Positions 2,704 to 16,742 of a stretch of 64,000 nucleotides of DNA are shown one piece after another. Source of the DNA: Fibrobacter succinogenes (GTDB taxonomy: Bacteria; Fibrobacterota; Fibrobacteria; Fibrobacterales; Fibrobacteraceae); NCBI GenBank assembly GCA_902768715.1, contig CACXMH010000018.1, positions 1-64,000 of the forward strand, read 5' to 3'. A program made the position numbers and the translations under genes. A model generated the notes under the pieces. It was not told the DNA's origin. It saw nothing but the letters and a program-made list of their open reading frames with translations, and ran no database searches. Positions within the stretch are counted from its first letter, which is position 1. Every line of letters begins with the position of its first letter.

Positions 2704-4029
2704 TTATTCGGAATCCCTGATGCAACGGATAGAAGATCTTTGGTTCTTATTAGATGAAGTTACCATTACCCTGTCAGTTGTGTAAGATAACTCCATTACG
2801 AAGACCTCAGAGTCATCATCGGACTGCGAGGCACTCCAAAAATCTGCATAATCATGTACGAAGCCGTAGTCCCCGCTGCTGTTCGCCAAACCAGCAGGTA
2901 GCGCGGAAAAGCCAAACGTATCCTTGTTCTCAATCTCAGAAAAAATTTTCCAGTCAGTTGTGGTCTTGAGATATTTGGCTGCGACATTTGTTTTGTTCCA
3001 AACTCCGCCTAAGCTTTCATCTACATTTATAACAAGGGTTTTCCATTCATCTTGTGTGGGAATATGCCATCCGTCGGGGCAGATGCCCTGGACGTTGCCC
3101 GAACCCAGGTCGCAGACATGGCCGGGGCCGCACTCGTCTGTGCTCCTGTCCATGGCGGTAGTCCAGGTGTACAGCCGTCCGTAGGTATCGCAAAAGTCTG
3201 CAATATAGGGATTACAGTAACTGCCTGTTGCAGTTTTGTAGTTTAGGTTCTCTGCCATCCAAATCTGATCGCCAATAGATACAACTCTATAAACATTATC
3301 GTCACGAGTATCGGTCAGATAGAGAGTTCCGTTGTTGCATTCCGAATTCGCGGGGTCATACGGAATCTTTCCGCACATAGCCTTGTAGAGGGTCGAAGTC
3401 TTTGTCCCGCACTTGATGGTCAATACCCCGTTTACATCGCCAACAATGTCGCAACTTGCCCCTTCACTGCCGTTCAGCACTTCGCCCTTTTTAACTCCAC
3501 CGCACATGATGTCATATCCATTTGCTGAAGCGTCTGCGGTGCAGGACTCACCCTCGTCACCGTTCAGCACCACGCCTACGGAGTCACCACCACATTCAAT
3601 CTTGTAGCCACCGCCGCTTGCCAATTTTTTGGCGGTGCAAGACTTGCCTGCAGCACCTGGCGTTCCTACGCCGTCTTCGCCCTTGGGTCCCTGCTGACCC
3701 TGCTTTCCTTCGCCAGGTTCACCTTGCGGGCCTTGCTCGCCCTGGATGCCCTGATCGCCCTTCTCGCCTTTCAGGGACTGCCACTTGCTATCGGCGCAGA
3801 AGAACGCGGCGGCAGAGTCTGTGGCATAGACCATTTCGCCTGCGTTGTCGGCAGTACAGTCGGGCATCTTTGCGCCTTTTTCAATGAGGGTCATTCCCGC
3901 GGTCTCGGTAATGTTGTTGGTTGTTTCGTCGCCACAGGCGGTAAGGAATAGCGGTAGTGAGATTGCTGCGCATCCAAGGGTGATCGCAACGACATTGCGA
4001 CCGGTTGACATTTTGGATATTGTTTTCAT
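2704..4029 (-). CDS. FISUMP-domain lipoprotein with collagen-like segment
   Basis: A predicted surface lipoprotein of 441 residues. The signal peptide ends in a lipobox LTAC with Cys32. Residues 88-128 are a collagen-like Gly-X-Y run (for example GEKGDQGIQGEQGPQGEPG), followed by three short Cys-containing modules of the type GxSCxA..., then a FISUMP domain from about residue 225 to the end, with NVYRVVSIGDQIWMAENLNY, GRLYTW, CPDGWHIPT and a closing SIRCIRD. FISUMP proteins are greatly expanded in Fibrobacter and probably act at the cell surface; their biochemical role is not established. Met7 is an alternative start that keeps the signal peptide. The gene converges with glnN. Confidence 0.9.
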   Translation of the reverse strand: MKTISKMSTGRNVVAITLGCAAISLPLFLTACGDETTNNITETAGMTLIEKGAKMPDCTADNAGEMVYATDSAAAFFCADSKWQSLKGEKGDQGIQGEQGPQGEPGEGKQGQQGPKGEDGVGTPGAAGKSCTAKKLASGGGYKIECGGDSVGVVLNGDEGESCTADASANGYDIMCGGVKKGEVLNGSEGASCDIVGDVNGVLTIKCGTKTSTLYKAMCGKIPYDPANSECNNGTLYLTDTRDDNVYRVVSIGDQIWMAENLNYKTATGSYCNPYIADFCDTYGRLYTWTTAMDRSTDECGPGHVCDLGSGNVQGICPDGWHIPTQDEWKTLVINVDESLGGVWNKTNVAAKYLKTTTDWKIFSEIENKDTFGFSALPAGLANSSGDYGFVHDYADFWSASQSDDDSEVFVMELSYTTDRVMVTSSNKNQRSSIRCIRDSE

Positions 4030-4104
4030 GGTTTATTCACCATTCTAGAATAGTTTTTCTTGATGTATGAAGATAAAAAAATTTGGGGGTCTTAGGGGAG
4101 TCCC

Positions 4105-4175
4105 ACTAGCTCCGAGCCTCACACCCCACACCTCACACCCCAAAGCGAAGCGACCTCACACCTCGTACCTATTTA
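4105..4175 (+). repeat. G-poor degenerate tandem (CACACCTCACACC type)
   Basis: Pyrimidine/A-rich words related to CCTCACACC and CTACTACC fill the leader of the coiled-coil gene. The coding strand of the downstream gene carries the C-rich words, as in the other copies of this repeat class. Confidence 0.6.
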
Positions 4176-4207
4176 CTACATTTCCCTACTACTACCAAGG
4201 GGGCTTT

Positions 4208-4561
4208 ATGCAAGACGCTGAACGGGATAAACGCATATCCGAACTTGTGAAAAAGGACCAGGAGCACGACGCCCGCCTGGATGCCCAGGCCGAAAAGGAT
4301 TACGAGCACGACCTGCGTATCGATTCCCTCTACAGCAAGGAACGGGAGCAGGAATTCAAGATCAAGGCCCAGGTGGCAAAGGACGCGGAACACGATTTCC
4401 GCCTGAATTCCGTGGACTCCAAGAACGAGGAGCAGGATTCTGAACTGCATCGCCAGTCCATCAAGGACCGGGAGCACGATGCCCGCCTGGAAACCTTGGA
4501 AAAACTTTATGCGGACCTGGCCGCCCGTGTGGAATTTCTGGAATCTCAATTGAAAAAATAG
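4208..4561 (+). CDS. Coiled-coil protein built of 14-residue repeats
   Basis: A 117-residue, very charged protein without signal peptide or membrane segment. From about residue 15 it consists of six consecutive 14-residue units (two heptads each), such as EKDYEHDLRIDSLY, AKDAEHDFRLNSVD and IKDREHDARLETLE. Each unit has a KDxEHDxRL core or its SKxxEQ variant. The end (LEKLYADLAARVEFLESQL) is a classic coiled coil. It should form a long rod or oligomer. The start at 4208 is chosen because the reading frame upstream of it is repeat sequence. It ends 4 bp before the elongation factor paralogue, so the two are almost certainly co-transcribed. I do not recognise a family. Confidence 0.75.
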   Translation: MQDAERDKRISELVKKDQEHDARLDAQAEKDYEHDLRIDSLYSKEREQEFKIKAQVAKDAEHDFRLNSVDSKNEEQDSELHRQSIKDREHDARLETLEKLYADLAARVEFLESQLKK

Positions 4562-4565
4562 GCCC

Positions 4566-6599
4566 ATGTCGCAGCCTGTCCGGAACATCGCCATCCTTGC
4601 CCACGTGGATGCGGGTAAGACCACCTTGTCGGAACGGATTCTGTTCACGGCAGGGGAGGTGCGTCGTCCGGGCCGCGTAGAAGAAGGCCTTGCCACCATG
4701 GACTACCTGCCCGAAGAAAAGGACAGGGGTATCACTATCGAAAGCGGCGTGGCCCACTTTGAGTGGAAGGACACCTGGTTCAACTTTATCGATACGCCGG
4801 GTCATGTGGATTTTGGTGCCGAGGTGGACACGGCCCTCACGGCGGTGGAAGGGGCGATCCTTGTGGTGAGTGCCGCCAGCGGTGTAGAGACCCAGACGGT
4901 GGCCGCTTTCAAGAAACTCCGGGAGGCGGGCGTTCGGACGATTTTGTTCGTGAACAAGTTGGACAATCCCGACTATTCCCTGGACGAAACCCTCATCAAT
5001 ATCGAAGAGGTTCTGGGTGTGCGTCCGGTGCTCATGACGCTGCCGGAATATCGGGACGGCAAGATGACCGGCGTGCTGGACGTGCTGAGCAAAAGCCGCC
5101 TGGAACATTCCGCTGCCGGCGAAGAAGTGGTGGACGAAGGATGGAACGTGGATGACGGCTGGGACCAGGCCCACGACCTGAAAAAGCATTACGCCGAGGC
5201 GGTGGAATTTGCCAGCAATTTTGACGACGAGATTTTGAAGCTTGCCATGGAAGGTAAGCCTGTACCGGCGAAGATTCTCTTGCGGGGGCTGAAGGCCCTG
5301 GCGGCATGCGACGATTACGCCCTGTGCTACGCGGGCTCTGCTATGGAAGGTTTTGGCGTGCGGAGCCTCACGACGGCGCTGACTTTCTTTTTGCCAGAGG
5401 TGCCTGCCTTTGACAAGGGTGAACTTGGCCAGGTGATACGCCTCAGGTATTTCAAGGGCGTGGGGGAGATTTCCATTTTCCGAAGCCACACGGATTTGGA
5501 ACGGAAGGCATGGCCAGCGGGTTTTGAGTTTTCGAGACTGAAGGCGAACCTGCTGGTGCCCGTAGATGAAATCCGTGCAGGCGATATCTACGCCCTGCGT
5601 ACGCCTTTCGAGACGGAACTGGGGGAGGTAATTTATTTAGACGAGAGACGAGAGACGAGAGACGAGAGACGTGAGGCCGGAACCCTGAACTCAAAATTTT
5701 CTCAAGCGGATCCTCGCCTTCGCGAGGATGACGTTCCTCGAACCTCGAACCCCGAGCCTCGAACCTCCATCCGCGACAAGTACCAGCCGCTTTTGCAGAC
5801 CCGCGTGGAATGCCTGGGTTCCGAGGACTTTTTGCATGTAGATAAGAGCCTGAATATGCTTAGCCGTATGGACCCCAGCTTTCGTGTACAGAAGGATGAT
5901 GGAGGATTTTGGTACCTGCATACGGTGGGCGAGGTTCAGTTGGATGTGTTGCTTTCGCGCCTCAAGCGGGAATTCGGTTGCGAGGTAAAGGCGGGTAGCC
6001 CTGAGGTTCGTTGGCAGGAACGGTTGTGCCGTGAGGTGGGGCCTGTGGAGAATTCTTTCCAGTTGGGACCCCACAAGATTTCTATCAAGCTTTCGGCCAC
6101 CCCGCTGGAGGGTGATGCCCACGATATACGGCTTTCTGCGGATTTTTTGGAGACTGCCCCCCGCGAGATTCTGGCCGGAGTCCGTTCGGCCCTGCTGGAA
6201 TCTGCCGAAGTCGGGATTCTCGGCAAGGGAGCGCTGGTAGGTGTGCGTTTTGAGGTCCACGAGTTCACCTGGACCGAGGGGGCGCTCCCGCCTATGATCA
6301 AGAAGGCTTGCGCCGATGCGGTTACAAAACTGATCAAGCTCGCCGATGTGGAACTTTACGAACCCATCATGGAGCTTTCGCTGGAATGCCCCGTGAACTT
6401 TGCAGGTCTTGTGACCGGCGATATCCAGTCACGGGACGGCAAGGTGAAAGAAATCGGCGGCGACGGCAAGACCCACTTTTTGAAAGCGGAAGTCCCGCTG
6501 CGAAAAATTTTCGGTTATGCTACCGGCGTGCGCAGCATCAGCAAGGGCACCGCCCTTTACAGCATGAAACTGCTGGGGTATAAGCCTGCGACGGTTTGA
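4566..6599 (+). CDS. Elongation factor G paralogue, Tet(M)-like ribosomal-protection family
   Basis: A translational GTPase of 677 residues. G1 is AHVDAGKTTL (13-22), switch II is DTPGHVDF and G4 is NKLD. The EEKDRGITIESGVAHFEW stretch resembles the matching part of Tet(M)/Tet(O) more than canonical EF-G. Domain III begins near YQPLLQTRVE and domain IV/V elements follow to the end. Members either remove tetracycline from the ribosome or act as EF-G variants; resistance cannot be asserted from sequence. Residues about 360-401 are an in-frame insertion of intergenic repeat DNA in the domain II-III linker. Without it the protein would be about 635 residues, the family's usual length. It follows the coiled-coil gene by 4 bp. 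Confidence 0.88.
   Translation: MSQPVRNIAILAHVDAGKTTLSERILFTAGEVRRPGRVEEGLATMDYLPEEKDRGITIESGVAHFEWKDTWFNFIDTPGHVDFGAEVDTALTAVEGAILVVSAASGVETQTVAAFKKLREAGVRTILFVNKLDNPDYSLDETLINIEEVLGVRPVLMTLPEYRDGKMTGVLDVLSKSRLEHSAAGEEVVDEGWNVDDGWDQAHDLKKHYAEAVEFASNFDDEILKLAMEGKPVPAKILLRGLKALAACDDYALCYAGSAMEGFGVRSLTTALTFFLPEVPAFDKGELGQVIRLRYFKGVGEISIFRSHTDLERKAWPAGFEFSRLKANLLVPVDEIRAGDIYALRTPFETELGEVIYLDERRETRDERREAGTLNSKFSQADPRLREDDVPRTSNPEPRTSIRDKYQPLLQTRVECLGSEDFLHVDKSLNMLSRMDPSFRVQKDDGGFWYLHTVGEVQLDVLLSRLKREFGCEVKAGSPEVRWQERLCREVGPVENSFQLGPHKISIKLSATPLEGDAHDIRLSADFLETAPREILAGVRSALLESAEVGILGKGALVGVRFEVHEFTWTEGALPPMIKKACADAVTKLIKLADVELYEPIMELSLECPVNFAGLVTGDIQSRDGKVKEIGGDGKTHFLKAEVPLRKIFGYATGVRSISKGTALYSMKLLGYKPATV
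5641..5770 (+). repeat. Mosaic repeat inserted in frame in the elongation factor paralogue
   Basis: Three parts are seen: an ACGAGAG tandem (5641-5670), a palindrome with arms ATCCTCGC/GCGAGGAT (5710-5729) ending in GATGAC, and a GAACCTCGAACC-type tandem (5733-5768). The 31 bp at 5702-5732 are identical to intergenic DNA at 9140-9170. It adds about 42 codons without a stop. Confidence 0.85.
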
Positions 6600-6626
6600 C
6601 GCCGTCTTTTGGTGCCGCTTGAACCT

Positions 6627-7880
6627 TTATTTCTCGGATTCTTCGTAGCTGATGTCGGTATAGTACTTTTCGGCCGGCGTTGCAGGATTGTCGATGGCGT
6701 CAATGACGTTGATGAAAGATCCGCTGAGCATGCTTGCCCCGAACCACCCGAGGAACTGATCAAAGTACATCTCGTTGTGCAGGGTATCTTCGGTTCCGCC
6801 TAGAGGATCAACGGCGTTTCCGAAATAATCTCCGTCTTCATAGAACTTGGAGAGTTCCAAACTGAAGGCTTCCATGTCCTCTTTGGAGCCGGCGGCAGCG
6901 ACAGCAGTCGCCCACATGCCGACGGTCAGATGGCTGTGCTCCTGACGGGTGCGGGGGATGGTTCCTGCGGCCATGTCTGTCCAGATGTCTTCGGCGGGAA
7001 CCAGCGTTCCGTCGGTCTTGTAGAAGTTTGCGGCCGGAGCGCCGCCTGCGTTGTTGATGAAGGCGACGGCGTTGGTCAGGAGGGCTTTGGCACGGATTTC
7101 CTTGAACCAGATGGCGTCAATGGCGACTCGCCAAAGGGTGCGTATGGCGTCCTTGAAACAGTATTGACCATTTCCATAGGCGTTGTAGCCCAGTCCTGCC
7201 CCGGCATAACCTCCGGAGGGAGTCATCCAGTCGGGAATCAGGCCGTAGGGATATCCGACACTGTTACTCAAGATTTCATAACTGCGGTCCACAACCTTTT
7301 GCCAATTGTGGGTGGAATCATACTTGGCAAAAATCTTGTACCAGGCGGGGGAGAAATAGCCGGGGTTGACAAAGTCTTCGCCGCCCCAGCCGGCTCCCGG
7401 CGCGAGTGTTCCCCTAGATGTGATTTGTTCGGTACTCCACATGCAATTCATTATCTTTTTTGCGTGGTCAATATAGCTACCTCTTTTTTCTGAGGAATAG
7501 TTCTTCCATTTCCCTGCGTTGACCAGCTTGTCGGCAAATACCAGCGCTAGGGCTACATCTTCTTCGGCATCGGTGGCTGCCCCTCGTCCGAGGACAGAAC
7601 CGTTCTTGCTGACCTGCCAGTTGTAGAAACAGCTGGACCACATGTAGGTATTGCCCGCTTCCCAGATGCTGTTGAAGGTTTTTTGGTCGTTGGCAAACAG
7701 GGCGGTGAGCATGCCGTAGCCAACACCCTCACTGACGGCGTCTCCTGGTTTTTCGCTTTTGGGGCGGTGGATGAGGCCTGTGCCGTAGGGTTCAATGTTT
7801 CTCTTCTTGATGCCTTCCCAGACATTGGAAAGAGCGTTTTTCCAATAGCCTTCATCGACGGTTCTTTGGTCAGATGTCAA
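6627..7880 (-). CDS. Glycoside hydrolase family 8 catalytic domain (frameshifted from its signal peptide)
   Basis: Endo-acting beta-glycanase family (cellulase, xylanase, chitosanase, lichenase). Family signatures are DAVSEGVGYGM, where the Glu is the expected proton donor, and ATDAEEDVALALVFA, followed by a (alpha/alpha)6-barrel-like sequence with many Trp/Tyr. The open frame starts only at a TTG at 7880. Just upstream, the same frame continues back to a run of six A residues (coding strand) and stops at TAA, while a lipoprotein signal peptide begins at 8014 in the other frame. One extra A would join them into one product of roughly 460 residues. The intact protein would be an outer-membrane or periplasmic lipoprotein enzyme. 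Substrate cannot be told from sequence. Confidence 0.85.
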   Translation of the reverse strand: MTSDQRTVDEGYWKNALSNVWEGIKKRNIEPYGTGLIHRPKSEKPGDAVSEGVGYGMLTALFANDQKTFNSIWEAGNTYMWSSCFYNWQVSKNGSVLGRGAATDAEEDVALALVFADKLVNAGKWKNYSSEKRGSYIDHAKKIMNCMWSTEQITSRGTLAPGAGWGGEDFVNPGYFSPAWYKIFAKYDSTHNWQKVVDRSYEILSNSVGYPYGLIPDWMTPSGGYAGAGLGYNAYGNGQYCFKDAIRTLWRVAIDAIWFKEIRAKALLTNAVAFINNAGGAPAANFYKTDGTLVPAEDIWTDMAAGTIPRTRQEHSHLTVGMWATAVAAAGSKEDMEAFSLELSKFYEDGDYFGNAVDPLGGTEDTLHNEMYFDQFLGWFGASMLSGSFINVIDAIDNPATPAEKYYTDISYEESEK

Positions 7881-8014
7881 ATCAAGGAGGGAGTTGGAAA
7901 ACTCCTTGAGTTCTGTTTTTTATCGGTCTCGTCTGCTCCTGACGAATTATCGCTGGAACAGGCGGAAAGGAGAAGGGAGGAAAAAGCAAAGAGGAGGATT
8001 TTTTTGTATTTCAT
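7877..8014 (-). pseudogene. Detached lipoprotein signal peptide of the GH8 gene
   Basis: The ATG at 8014 opens a 45-codon frame: a basic start, a hydrophobic core and a lipobox LSAC at Cys19, then SSDNSSGADETDKK. After the A6 run (about 7916-7921 on the plus strand) the frame becomes junk and stops at 7877. In the GH8 frame the DNA after the run reads TELKEFSNSLLDLTSDQRTV, which continues naturally into the enzyme. The upstream region thus holds the true start of the GH8 gene, separated by a -1 frameshift. Confidence 0.8.
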
Positions 8015-8055
8015 ATAAACAAAATAGATTAAAATCTTTATGTGTTATAACAATT

Positions 8056-8076
8056 AGGGCGGGTGTAACCCTCCCT
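8056..8076. terminator. Possible weak terminator hairpin downstream of the DUF58 gene
   Basis: AGGGCGGG pairs with CCCTCCCT with one mismatch around a five-base loop, between the end of the DUF58 gene and the GH8 promoter region. There is no strong T-run, so termination is uncertain. Confidence 0.3.
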
Positions 8077-8081
8077 ATTCA

Positions 8082-8972
<891 letters not shown>

Positions 8973-9005
8973 TTCGCCCACAATATACAAAGTTTACGGC
9001 TGTGA

Positions 9006-9265
9006 GGCAAACGGGGGCGTTGCGGGGGGAGAGCCCCCGCTAGAAGGGGTAGCGGATGACTCGGCTAGATGGCGGGGTGGGACCCGCCATGACGACGTGG
9101 CAGAAGCGAGGGGAAGGCTTTCCCCTAATCACTGACACATCAAGCGGATCCTCGCCTTCGCGAGGATGACAAAAAAAGAATCGCTCAGGATGACACTTCT
9201 TGAAACCTGCGGCACTAAAACCTAAGACCTATTACCTAACCCCTAGCCCCTAGATCCTAAATCCT
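9006..9265 (+). repeat. Composite mosaic repeat (GC block, GATGAC palindrome, CCTA tandem)
   Basis: In order: a GC-rich block (9012-9127) with GGGGCGTTGCGGGG, GAAGGGGTAGCGGA and GCGAGGGGAAGG; a palindrome ending in GGATGAC (9140-9170, identical to DNA inside the elongation factor paralogue); CAGGATGACACTTCTTGA (9187-9204); and a G-poor CCTA tandem (9220-9265). The same order recurs at 45940-46168. Confidence 0.8.
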
Positions 9266-9270
9266 AACCC

Positions 9271-10443
9271 CTAATAAGCCCCTTCGCCCTTGAACACGAC
9301 CTTGAAGGTCTTGAGGATGAGCTTGAAGTCGTCGGCTAGCTTGCCGCCGCGGCGGATGTAGTCGTTGTCCAGGCGCATCTGGCCTTCGAAGCTGATGTTG
9401 CTGCGACCGCTGACCTGCCAGATGCAGGTGAGTCCGGGGGTTACGGAAAGGCGCATGCGGTGCCAGGGTTCGTAGGTTTCCACCTCCTCGGGGAGAGGCG
9501 GACGGGGCCCCACGATGGACATGTCGCCGTTGATGATGTTCACCAGCTGGGGCAGTTCGTCGAGGCTGAACTTGCGGAGAATACGGCCGAAGGGGTAGAT
9601 ACGGGGGTCGTTCTTGATTTTGAAGGTCTTGCCGCCGGTCTCGTTCAGGGCCATGAGTTCTTTTTTGCGTTCTTCGGCATCTACGTACATGCTTCGGAAC
9701 TTGTACATGGTAAACAGCGAGCCGTTCTTGCCCACGCGGGTCTGCTTGAAGATGATGGGCCCCTTGGGGTCGCTGATTTTTACGGCCAGGGCACAGAATA
9801 AAAGCACCGGCGAAAGGATAATCAGGCCCAGCAGGGCACCTGTAAAGTCCACGCACCGCTTGATGATATGCCGAAAACGGATCTTGTGGGGGTGGGGCCA
9901 GATATGGTCCATGTTCAGGCGGTCAACACGGAAGAAACTGCCGTTGGTGCTGTTGAATTCCTTGATGGTGTCCGCCAGTTCAAGATTTTCTTTTTCTTGC
10001 AGTCCTGTGTACAGGTAGGCCTTGAAAATGGGCTTTCTGGGCTTGTGCCGCAGGTTCTGGATAAGGCCCGCGTCGTTTAGCCTGTGGAGAATCTCCTTGC
10101 GGACGTTCTCCAGGGTGGAAAGGTCCGAATTCAGCAGGATGACACCGATACCGTTACCATCGGAAAGGTAGCCGATGACATCGATGAACCGGAGGTGGGA
10201 GAACATAGTAAGGAGGCTGATTCGCCAGGTCTGCTCGATCGTCTGGTTTGGCCATGCCCAACCCAGCAGGTCGAACTGGTGGGCGTAAATCTGGATAAAG
10301 ATGAAGGGCTTGCGGGTGCGGTTTGCCCGCAGGAACTCCTCGTTCAGCCGAGCCCGGAAAAGCCTGGCCGGATAGACGATGTTCTTTAGCCTCTGCTCCG
10401 TGAGTATAGAGTCAATGGCCGGATTTACCGATTCCTGTTCCAT
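9271..10443 (-). CDS. Sugar transferase with N-terminal degenerate GGDEF-like domain
   Basis: The C-terminal half (about residues 200-390) is a bacterial sugar transferase (polyprenyl-phosphate sugar-1-P transferase, WbaP/RfbP catalytic type). It has a membrane helix (DFTGALLGLIILSPVLLF), KFRSMYVDAEE, DELPQLVNIINGDMSIVGPRP and PGLTCIWQVSGR. It would load the first sugar phosphate of an exopolysaccharide or O-antigen onto undecaprenyl phosphate. The first ~190 residues (FRARLNEEFLRANRTRKPFIFIQI in two parts) resemble a degenerate GGDEF fold without an active GGDEF motif; this is inference. No glycosyltransferase cluster surrounds it. Confidence 0.85.
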   Translation of the reverse strand: MEQESVNPAIDSILTEQRLKNIVYPARLFRARLNEEFLRANRTRKPFIFIQIYAHQFDLLGWAWPNQTIEQTWRISLLTMFSHLRFIDVIGYLSDGNGIGVILLNSDLSTLENVRKEILHRLNDAGLIQNLRHKPRKPIFKAYLYTGLQEKENLELADTIKEFNSTNGSFFRVDRLNMDHIWPHPHKIRFRHIIKRCVDFTGALLGLIILSPVLLFCALAVKISDPKGPIIFKQTRVGKNGSLFTMYKFRSMYVDAEERKKELMALNETGGKTFKIKNDPRIYPFGRILRKFSLDELPQLVNIINGDMSIVGPRPPLPEEVETYEPWHRMRLSVTPGLTCIWQVSGRSNISFEGQMRLDNDYIRRGGKLADDFKLILKTFKVVFKGEGAY

Positions 10444-10472
10444 GTCCCTAAATCTAGAAAAAAGAGCCTGAG

Positions 10473-10583
10473 AGGTAATAGGTTTTAGGTTGTAGGTGTT
10501 AGGTTATGGATGCATGAGCATGGGCTTTGGGGCCAAGATGCTTCTTGTAATCAGTAATTCTAGTAACTAGTAACTAGTAACTA
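10473..10583 (-). repeat. CCTA tandem and CTAGTAA tandem in a divergent promoter region
   Basis: Words of the CCTACAACCTAAAACC type, read on the minus strand, run at 10473-10514 toward the sugar transferase start. A separate perfect CTAGTAA-type heptamer tandem is at 10557-10583 on the homoserine dehydrogenase side. Confidence 0.7.
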
Positions 10584-10646
10584 GCCGCAGGGAGTAGCTC
10601 CTTTTTTCTATCTTTCCCGCCGTAAAATTCAAAATGGAGACGCCTT

Positions 10647-15260: not shown

Positions 15261-16742
15261 CTAGAATCTGAAACCCGCTTGGATTTGCAACGCAAATCCG
15301 TTGCGGAAAACAAGCGAAGAAAAGGAATCCCATTTTTCGGCAAGGGAACTGCTCTTGCCTTTTTCTGTTGTGATGTCTTCGTCGGTATTGGGAATGTCGG
15401 GTGGCTCGGGTTCTTCGGCAGGTCCTTTGTCTGGTCCTTTTTCGGTGTGAAAGTGCAGGGGAATAATCTGTTCCATACCGAAGGAGACAAAGAAGGCTTT
15501 TGACGGGGATTGTAGTTCTGTGCCTAGGCCTGCTAATGCTCCGACGACATAGCCCTCCTGTTGCCAGGTGCTGGTAGAATGCTTGATGTGGAAGAACCCA
15601 GTTTTTTCCTTGCGCATGTTGAGCTTGGCGGTGTAGCTGGCGTAAAAACCGTCAAGGGTTGCCTTGGGTAGCAGGTGCCACCGGCCCACATTCAAGTTCC
15701 ACTGGTAACCCAGCCCAGCATCAAAAACTTTTCCGTCAATGTCGCCATATACGCGGAAAGAACGCTGGAAAACGCTAAATGAAAGAGTCTTTAATGTGGA
15801 ACTTTTCAAGGCTCGATTTGGGGCCAGGGTCTCGTAAAAGCGCCTGCTTTCCCAGGGAATGTTTATTTCCAGGGTCCCGTAAACGGCCCTTGCCGTGAAC
15901 CGGTCGCCGTCTTGGAATTTGTGCTGGACGTTCGCCTGGAAAAGGTTGGCGTCTAGTCCCAGGGGCAGGTAGGCGAATCTCTTTTCGCTTACCTCGTCGC
16001 TATTTTCCCGCATTAGTCCGAACAGCCGGATGTCGGAGTACAGGTAGGCGTAAGAAAGTTGGACTTTGTTGCTGGTTCCGTCATAGAGGTAGCGGAAGTC
16101 CGTCCCCCAAAAATCAGAGGAATCGCTGAAGGCGTAACCCCACTGGTTCTCGATGTCGGGGGTGGTTTCACCGTAGAAAAATTCCCCTTGCAGTCGATGG
16201 CTCAGTAGCCTTGTTCCCGCAGAAAAAATTTTGGCGAGTATGGTAGATTGGTAGGTTGCGTCGATAGTAGGGACGTAATCCTCTTCCCAGTCGGAATGCC
16301 AGCGGATTCCCGAAAGTTCAAGGAGTCCGGCGTTGATGGAAGCCTTGGCGTAGAGCAAGGAGTCGGGAAGGTGGAAACGGGATGAAACCCCTATGGCAGG
16401 GAGTGCGCTAACGTTGGCATCTATGCCAAAGAATTTGAAATCCCTGGAAAGGGATGTGTGTCCTGTAGTGAGAGTTTCTCCTGTCTTCAAATTCCAGGAA
16501 TAGTTTTTACGGTCGCTGTCACGTCGGTAACCCAGATGGTAACGTGTCTTCCCGACGCTTGCCCCCAAAGCCCAATCCCCTGCCTGCAGGCTGTCGCTGG
16601 CGGAGCAGCCCTTGATGGATGCCTTTGTGTTTTTCCAGTCCAACAGAAAAAGCCCGTCACACTGGACGAGCCCGGAATTCAGGGCGAACCCTGTGTTTGC
16701 AACGAGCAGGGCCGCCGAGAAAATTTTTGTTAGGTTACGCAA
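15261..16742 (-). CDS. Predicted outer-membrane beta-barrel protein
   Basis: A 493-residue exported protein. The N-terminus MRNLTKIFSAALLVANTGFA is a signal peptide. The rest shows alternating hydrophobic/aromatic strands and ends in FALQIQAGFRF, a C-terminal Phe motif typical of outer-membrane barrels. An acidic, Pro/Glu/Thr-rich loop (TEKGPDKGPAEEPEPPD) precedes the last strand. The start is a TTG 3 bp after the stop codon of the lipoprotein gene upstream, so the two form an operon and may act together in the envelope. No known family was recognised. Confidence 0.65.
   Translation of the reverse strand: MRNLTKIFSAALLVANTGFALNSGLVQCDGLFLLDWKNTKASIKGCSASDSLQAGDWALGASVGKTRYHLGYRRDSDRKNYSWNLKTGETLTTGHTSLSRDFKFFGIDANVSALPAIGVSSRFHLPDSLLYAKASINAGLLELSGIRWHSDWEEDYVPTIDATYQSTILAKIFSAGTRLLSHRLQGEFFYGETTPDIENQWGYAFSDSSDFWGTDFRYLYDGTSNKVQLSYAYLYSDIRLFGLMRENSDEVSEKRFAYLPLGLDANLFQANVQHKFQDGDRFTARAVYGTLEINIPWESRRFYETLAPNRALKSSTLKTLSFSVFQRSFRVYGDIDGKVFDAGLGYQWNLNVGRWHLLPKATLDGFYASYTAKLNMRKEKTGFFHIKHSTSTWQQEGYVVGALAGLGTELQSPSKAFFVSFGMEQIIPLHFHTEKGPDKGPAEEPEPPDIPNTDEDITTEKGKSSSLAEKWDSFSSLVFRNGFALQIQAGFRF

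Follow-up and report, generated by a model that had tools for sequence, protein, structure and literature searches.

The linker between domains II and III of an EF-G-like translational GTPase of Fibrobacter succinogenes was found to be filled, in frame, with repeats that also occur between genes. We read it as a permissive surface linker that a dispersed intergenic repeat mosaic has repeatedly colonised and expanded, and whose content has been exchanged, the reading frame being kept by selection on the host protein; the probability given to this reading is nearly 0.8. The gene lies at positions 4566–6599 (forward strand) of the window, the 64,000-nt stretch of DNA that was analysed, and codes for 677 aa. 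As the initial annotation had stated, the open reading frame contains no stop codon, the insert included. The identity of the gene was established from Pfam, NCBIfam, an alignment with Thermus EF-G and its orthologues. The protein contains the Pfam domains GTP_EFTU, EFG_III and EFG_C, as do EF-G and the Tet ribosomal-protection GTPases. Its scores were 305 bits for the EF-G equivalog model TIGR00484 (cut-off 659), 242 bits for the tetracycline-protection NCBIfam model (cut-off 775) and 149 bits for the Tet(M) model (cut-off 1420). It scores below the cut-offs for both EF-G and the Tet GTPases and is a separate paralogue; the name 'Tet(M)-like' given earlier stands only as a loose label, EF-G models scoring higher than the tetracycline-protection one. 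Intact orthologues were present in 23 of the 24 same-genus genomes searched, and a likely canonical EF-G (open frames of ∼710 aa) was matched separately in many of these genomes. The open frame that holds the orthologue of genome G030 (L060) is exceptionally long, with a listed length of 1295 aa. AlphaFold models of 22 orthologues (mean pLDDT 52, pTM 0.39) were too poor to display the linker loop.

The linker comprises 42 codons (residues 359–400; positions 5640–5765, forward strand) and is the sole strongly length-variable site among 43 orthologues. It corresponds to the domain II/III junction, since the Pfam EFG_III domain starts at residue 407 and, in alignments with Thermus EF-G, residues 356 and 405 of the window protein lie opposite residues 389 and 404, respectively. 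The size and position proposed for the insert (about 42 added codons, between these two domains) thus held, the linker exceeding by 32–37 residues those of the shortest orthologues, whether from the genus or from beyond it. Four segments were recognised in it, all on the forward strand. A tandem-repeat scan detected an array of the heptamer AGACGAG (ACGAGAG in another register) at 5639–5675, with 5.3 copies encoding DERRETR repeats, and another of CCTCGAA (GAACCTC) at 5736–5767, encoding PRTSNPEPRTS; these are the two flanking tandems described before. Degenerate GAAC-type heptamers (GAACCCTGAACTCA) were read off the sequence at 5680–5693, where they align with GAACCCCGAAC of the relative L061. 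A 31-bp palindromic repeat encoding QADPRLREDD occupies 5702–5732; its core spans 5708–5732, with a stem formed by 5710–5717 and 5722–5729 and a loop at 5718–5721. Sequence matching verified that this element is identical to intergenic DNA at 9140–9170 (forward strand), two matches being found in the window vs 0.00 expected by chance. An intergenic array of CCTANNN-type heptamers (9215–9273, no strand assigned), with stops in all frames, adjoins this second copy. No match to Rfam was obtained in the region 4000–10600, and no plasmid match to 5600–5800 was found. Six tandem arrays of period 7 were present in the window against 0.0 expected. Their unit sequences are diverse, and their positions include 5638, 10559, 24289, 46124 and 59192; arrays with periods of 8 to 12 amounted to zero.

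The proposal that the repeat can move or spread was borne out by its copy number, and also by the presence of the flanking arrays without the hairpin in the close relatives L061 and L062. In the 2.84-Mb genome to which the window belongs, the 25-bp core was found 107 times at ≤3 mismatches, 16 of the copies being exact, while the reversed core gave 0 matches. The eight stem pairs were intact in 99–100% of 101 copies, and double changes were observed at pairs 7/18 (72 T-A, 27 C-G), 9/16 (86 G-C, 14 A-T) and 5/20 (98 C-G, 3 T-A). These compensatory changes indicate a genuine dispersed hairpin, whose structure is itself conserved. The closest neighbours by sequence, genomes G016 and G022, contain 74 and 49 copies; in many other genomes of the genus the hairpin is scarce or absent. 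The copy at 9140–9170 is a member of this repeat family rather than a gene fragment. It is one of the 16 exact core copies, and the mosaic order of hairpin, GTTCCTC and GAACC-type heptamers recurs at further loci; it is not evidently the donor of the copy in the GTPase gene. A GTTCCT-like 3' flank follows 16 of 101 copies in the window genome. This order is seen in G016, G017 and G022 inside a patatin-like gene; in G016 a GNAT-like gene has it upstream as well. In the alignment of L031 with L061 the hairpin site lies within a heptamer array, which masks any target-site duplication of the kind expected of a MITE.

The linker is a hotspot for both length and content across the genus. The 43 same-genus orthologues are 79–100% identical outside it, while the linker itself takes 25 distinct lengths between 15 and 74 aa (SD 14.1 aa; 2.3 aa for the next most length-variable site). 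Outside the genus it measures 18–23 aa. Many of the genomes in this comparison are metagenome-assembled. The fillings observed were arrays of ACGAGAG, GAACCTC or GAATTCG, tandem CCGCGTCATCCTGGA units, other hairpins, GTCATTGCGAGC elements (peptide SLRAEGEAIS) and GTCATCCTGAGC...GTCGAAGGATC elements (peptide HPERSVAESKDP), different species having the linker filled with different repeats of the genus. As to their dispersal, ACGAGAG was repeated in 33 of 41 genus genomes, GTCGAAGGATC in 28, GTCATTGCGAGC in 22 and GAACCTC in 11, the reversed control giving 0 in each case. Some orthologues have a linker of 16–20 aa with no recognised repeat. When filling classes set by our own patterns were mapped on a tree of 46 rows from which the linker had been excluded, a minimum of 28 switches of filling was required. 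The 42 residues of the window protein are not a conserved segment; they differ even in orthologues that are 95–99% identical elsewhere. Another common filling, CGCCCGAAGGGCG, was considered as a dispersed repeat and left out of the repeat count because no genome had more than one match to it, and in two of four genomes that match lay inside the gene itself; the filling could be an old allele.

Filling of loops with repeats is general, and is also found in HemA and CobA-HemD. Gene context was read in stretches around the hairpin copies of the window genome. Of the 102 copies covered, 11 are in frame within nine genes, all but one of them supported by Pfam. Two copies each lie in the genes for an unnamed membrane protein and a patatin-like protein; the others are in those for the GTPase, a TonB receptor, a UvrA-like ATPase, CobA-HemD, HemA, a family-2 glycosyltransferase and Ppx/GppA. 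The hairpin is also contained in some open reading frames without a match in Pfam (L128 and L144), which were left out of the gene count. Since nearly nine-tenths of the copies lie outside recognised genes, insertions into genes are rarely kept. Across the genus, the HemA loop (residues 259–311; L155–L178) varies from 4 to 67 aa, with 16 lengths, and CobA-HemD (L185–L207) has four variable loops, reaching 7–95 aa. One in-frame TAG each was reported for the CobA-HemD sequences of G022 (L186) and G016 (L187). An ACGAGAG array is also in frame in a 455-aa open reading frame, glycosyltransferase-like by reading, of contig C19 of the window genome (G000, ∼15587–15628; L154).

These comparisons bear on the earlier suggestion that the repeat was exapted as a protein linker, that is, recruited as a useful spacer that might, for example, tune the movement of domains II and III on the ribosome. 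The frame is always kept, and charged DERRETR-type segments occur in several lineages, as such a role would lead one to expect. However, sequence, length, charge and repeat family differ between orthologues otherwise 95–99% identical, some orthologues have short linkers free of recognised repeats, and the like pattern in the HemA and CobA-HemD loops points to general tolerance. Exaptation is thus considered unlikely; what the data document is tolerance, replacement and frame retention, not a new function.

Turnover of the linker was seen among close relatives. L061 and L062, which outside the linker show 98% identity with the window protein, retain both arrays but lack the hairpin; thus either the window lineage acquired it or the sister lineages lost it. 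In L032, 99% identical outside the linker, a GAATTCG array replaces the first array. The run AGGATGACGTTCCTC is common to the window, L032 and the kin of L032, which would also allow for a more complex history in which the linker was replaced in part. Arrays also differ in length, by 84 bp between L037 and L077 (12 heptamers, or 4 × 21 bp) and by 60 bp between L045 and L052. Pure heptamer arrays inside a coding region, with lengths that differ between relatives, are what would be expected of a contingency locus, at which adding or removing a single 7-bp unit toggles the gene (phase variation). Yet all the orthologues that were read are in frame, the length differences seen are multiples of three, and many orthologues have no heptamer array, which makes phase variation of this gene very improbable. 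Where fillings are shared between divergent genes they are 92–100% identical, while their flanks are mostly only 70–88% identical. Linkers more alike than their flanks suggest that linker cassettes have been exchanged between lineages by recombination.

Assemblers misjoin at repeats, and the window genome is a metagenome assembly in 114 contigs; the mosaic might in principle have been created at a repeat during assembly. Against this, the two halves belong to one gene, with 97–99% protein identity to close relatives outside the linker; similar fillings were recovered in separate assemblies (L061/L062, L032/L064, L067/L068 and L075/L076); and repeat fillings are also present in high-quality genomes of 10–20 contigs (G004 and G005). 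The chance of such an artefact is accordingly put at next to nothing.

The three linker heptamers are free of stops in all six frames, because a repeat of 7 bp shifts through every frame and encodes one and the same peptide. The intergenic heptamers CCTAAAC, CCTAACC and CCTAGAT have stops in every frame, and none of them was seen in a linker. Every orthologue read was in frame and intact. Genomes with an ACGAGAG array in the linker had a median of 45 ACGAGAG copies elsewhere, vs 10 for those without it (Mann–Whitney p = 0.0009, own linker matches subtracted and kinship uncorrected). Linker content thus fits a combination of local repeat supply and a frame filter.

Colonisation of a permissive linker under selection for frame could proceed as follows. 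Stop-free repeats would enter the linker either by insertion or by recombination of its existing heptamer array with an intergenic mosaic that has the same heptamers at its end (hairpin-GTTCCTC-GAACC), the heptamer arrays providing the presumed homology through which mosaics recombine. Slippage would then lengthen or shorten the arrays, only frame-keeping changes having been seen. Homologous recombination in the conserved flanks would pass whole linkers between lineages, and purifying selection on the GTPase would purge events that break the frame or bring in stops. Linker content is assumed to be near neutral, which is probably the case. No insertion event was observed directly. A more far-reaching version, in which unrelated repeat families continue to enter fixed enzyme loops throughout the genus, with cassette shuffling, heptamers as handles, a candidate non-RAYT mover of the hairpin and some arrays that may switch expression by 7-bp slippage, is tentative and, on balance, doubtful.

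Three known repeat systems were compared. Like REP sequences and REPINs, the Fibrobacter hairpin is short and present in many copies. Among the 100 copies in the window genome with enough flank, 22 have an inverted partner upstream, 18 of them at an offset of -42 (a 17-bp spacer), forming REPIN-like doublets. Most copies are single. Unlike in a REP/REPIN-RAYT system, the copy in the GTPase gene is single, and no match to the RAYT-type domain PF01797 (Y1_Tnp) was obtained in the window genome, which is 95% complete; control genomes were matched. The STRR sequences of cyanobacteria are tandem arrays of 7-bp units, a period that the Fibrobacter arrays share, although unit sequences and phylum differ. 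Unlike STRR (mentioned in PMC5088731), stop-free Fibrobacter arrays sit inside genes. In the open-access literature, of which coverage was incomplete, no prior report of repeats inside Fibrobacter genes was found, and palindromes and intergenic repeats both go unmentioned in the main text of the paper describing the S85 genome.

The best-known cases of repeats inserted in frame into conserved genes come from Rickettsia, with reduced genomes and weak selection as suspected causes. The Fibrobacter case concerns bacteria of the gut and rumen whose genomes measure ∼2–5 Mb, involves several repeat families and shows repeated turnover in near-identical proteins. It offers dozens of natural replicates of how non-coding DNA yields new protein segments, whether neutral or useful, junk-like intergenic DNA becoming part of proteins of working length. 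Annotators should be aware that peptides such as HPERSVAESKDP, DERRETR and SSPRRRGS in Fibrobacter proteins are repeat-derived. Rickettsia palindromic elements, as summarised from Ogata et al. (2000) in PMC2229807, occur both between genes and in frame within conserved protein genes, where they are apparently tolerated. The Fibrobacter palindrome resembles these elements and those of Wolbachia in being dispersed, intergenic and also in frame in conserved genes, a likeness set by published descriptions, not by sequence. It is smaller, the Rickettsia elements being 105–146 bp with a long stem-loop (PMC2229807) and the conserved Fibrobacter unit ∼25–31 bp with an 8-bp stem. It also differs in being mixed with heptamer arrays, in sharing the same loop with several unrelated families and in that linkers were apparently exchanged between lineages. 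The Fibrobacter case thus extends known in-frame repeat insertion to a smaller element, to more families per site and to an apparent exchange between lineages.
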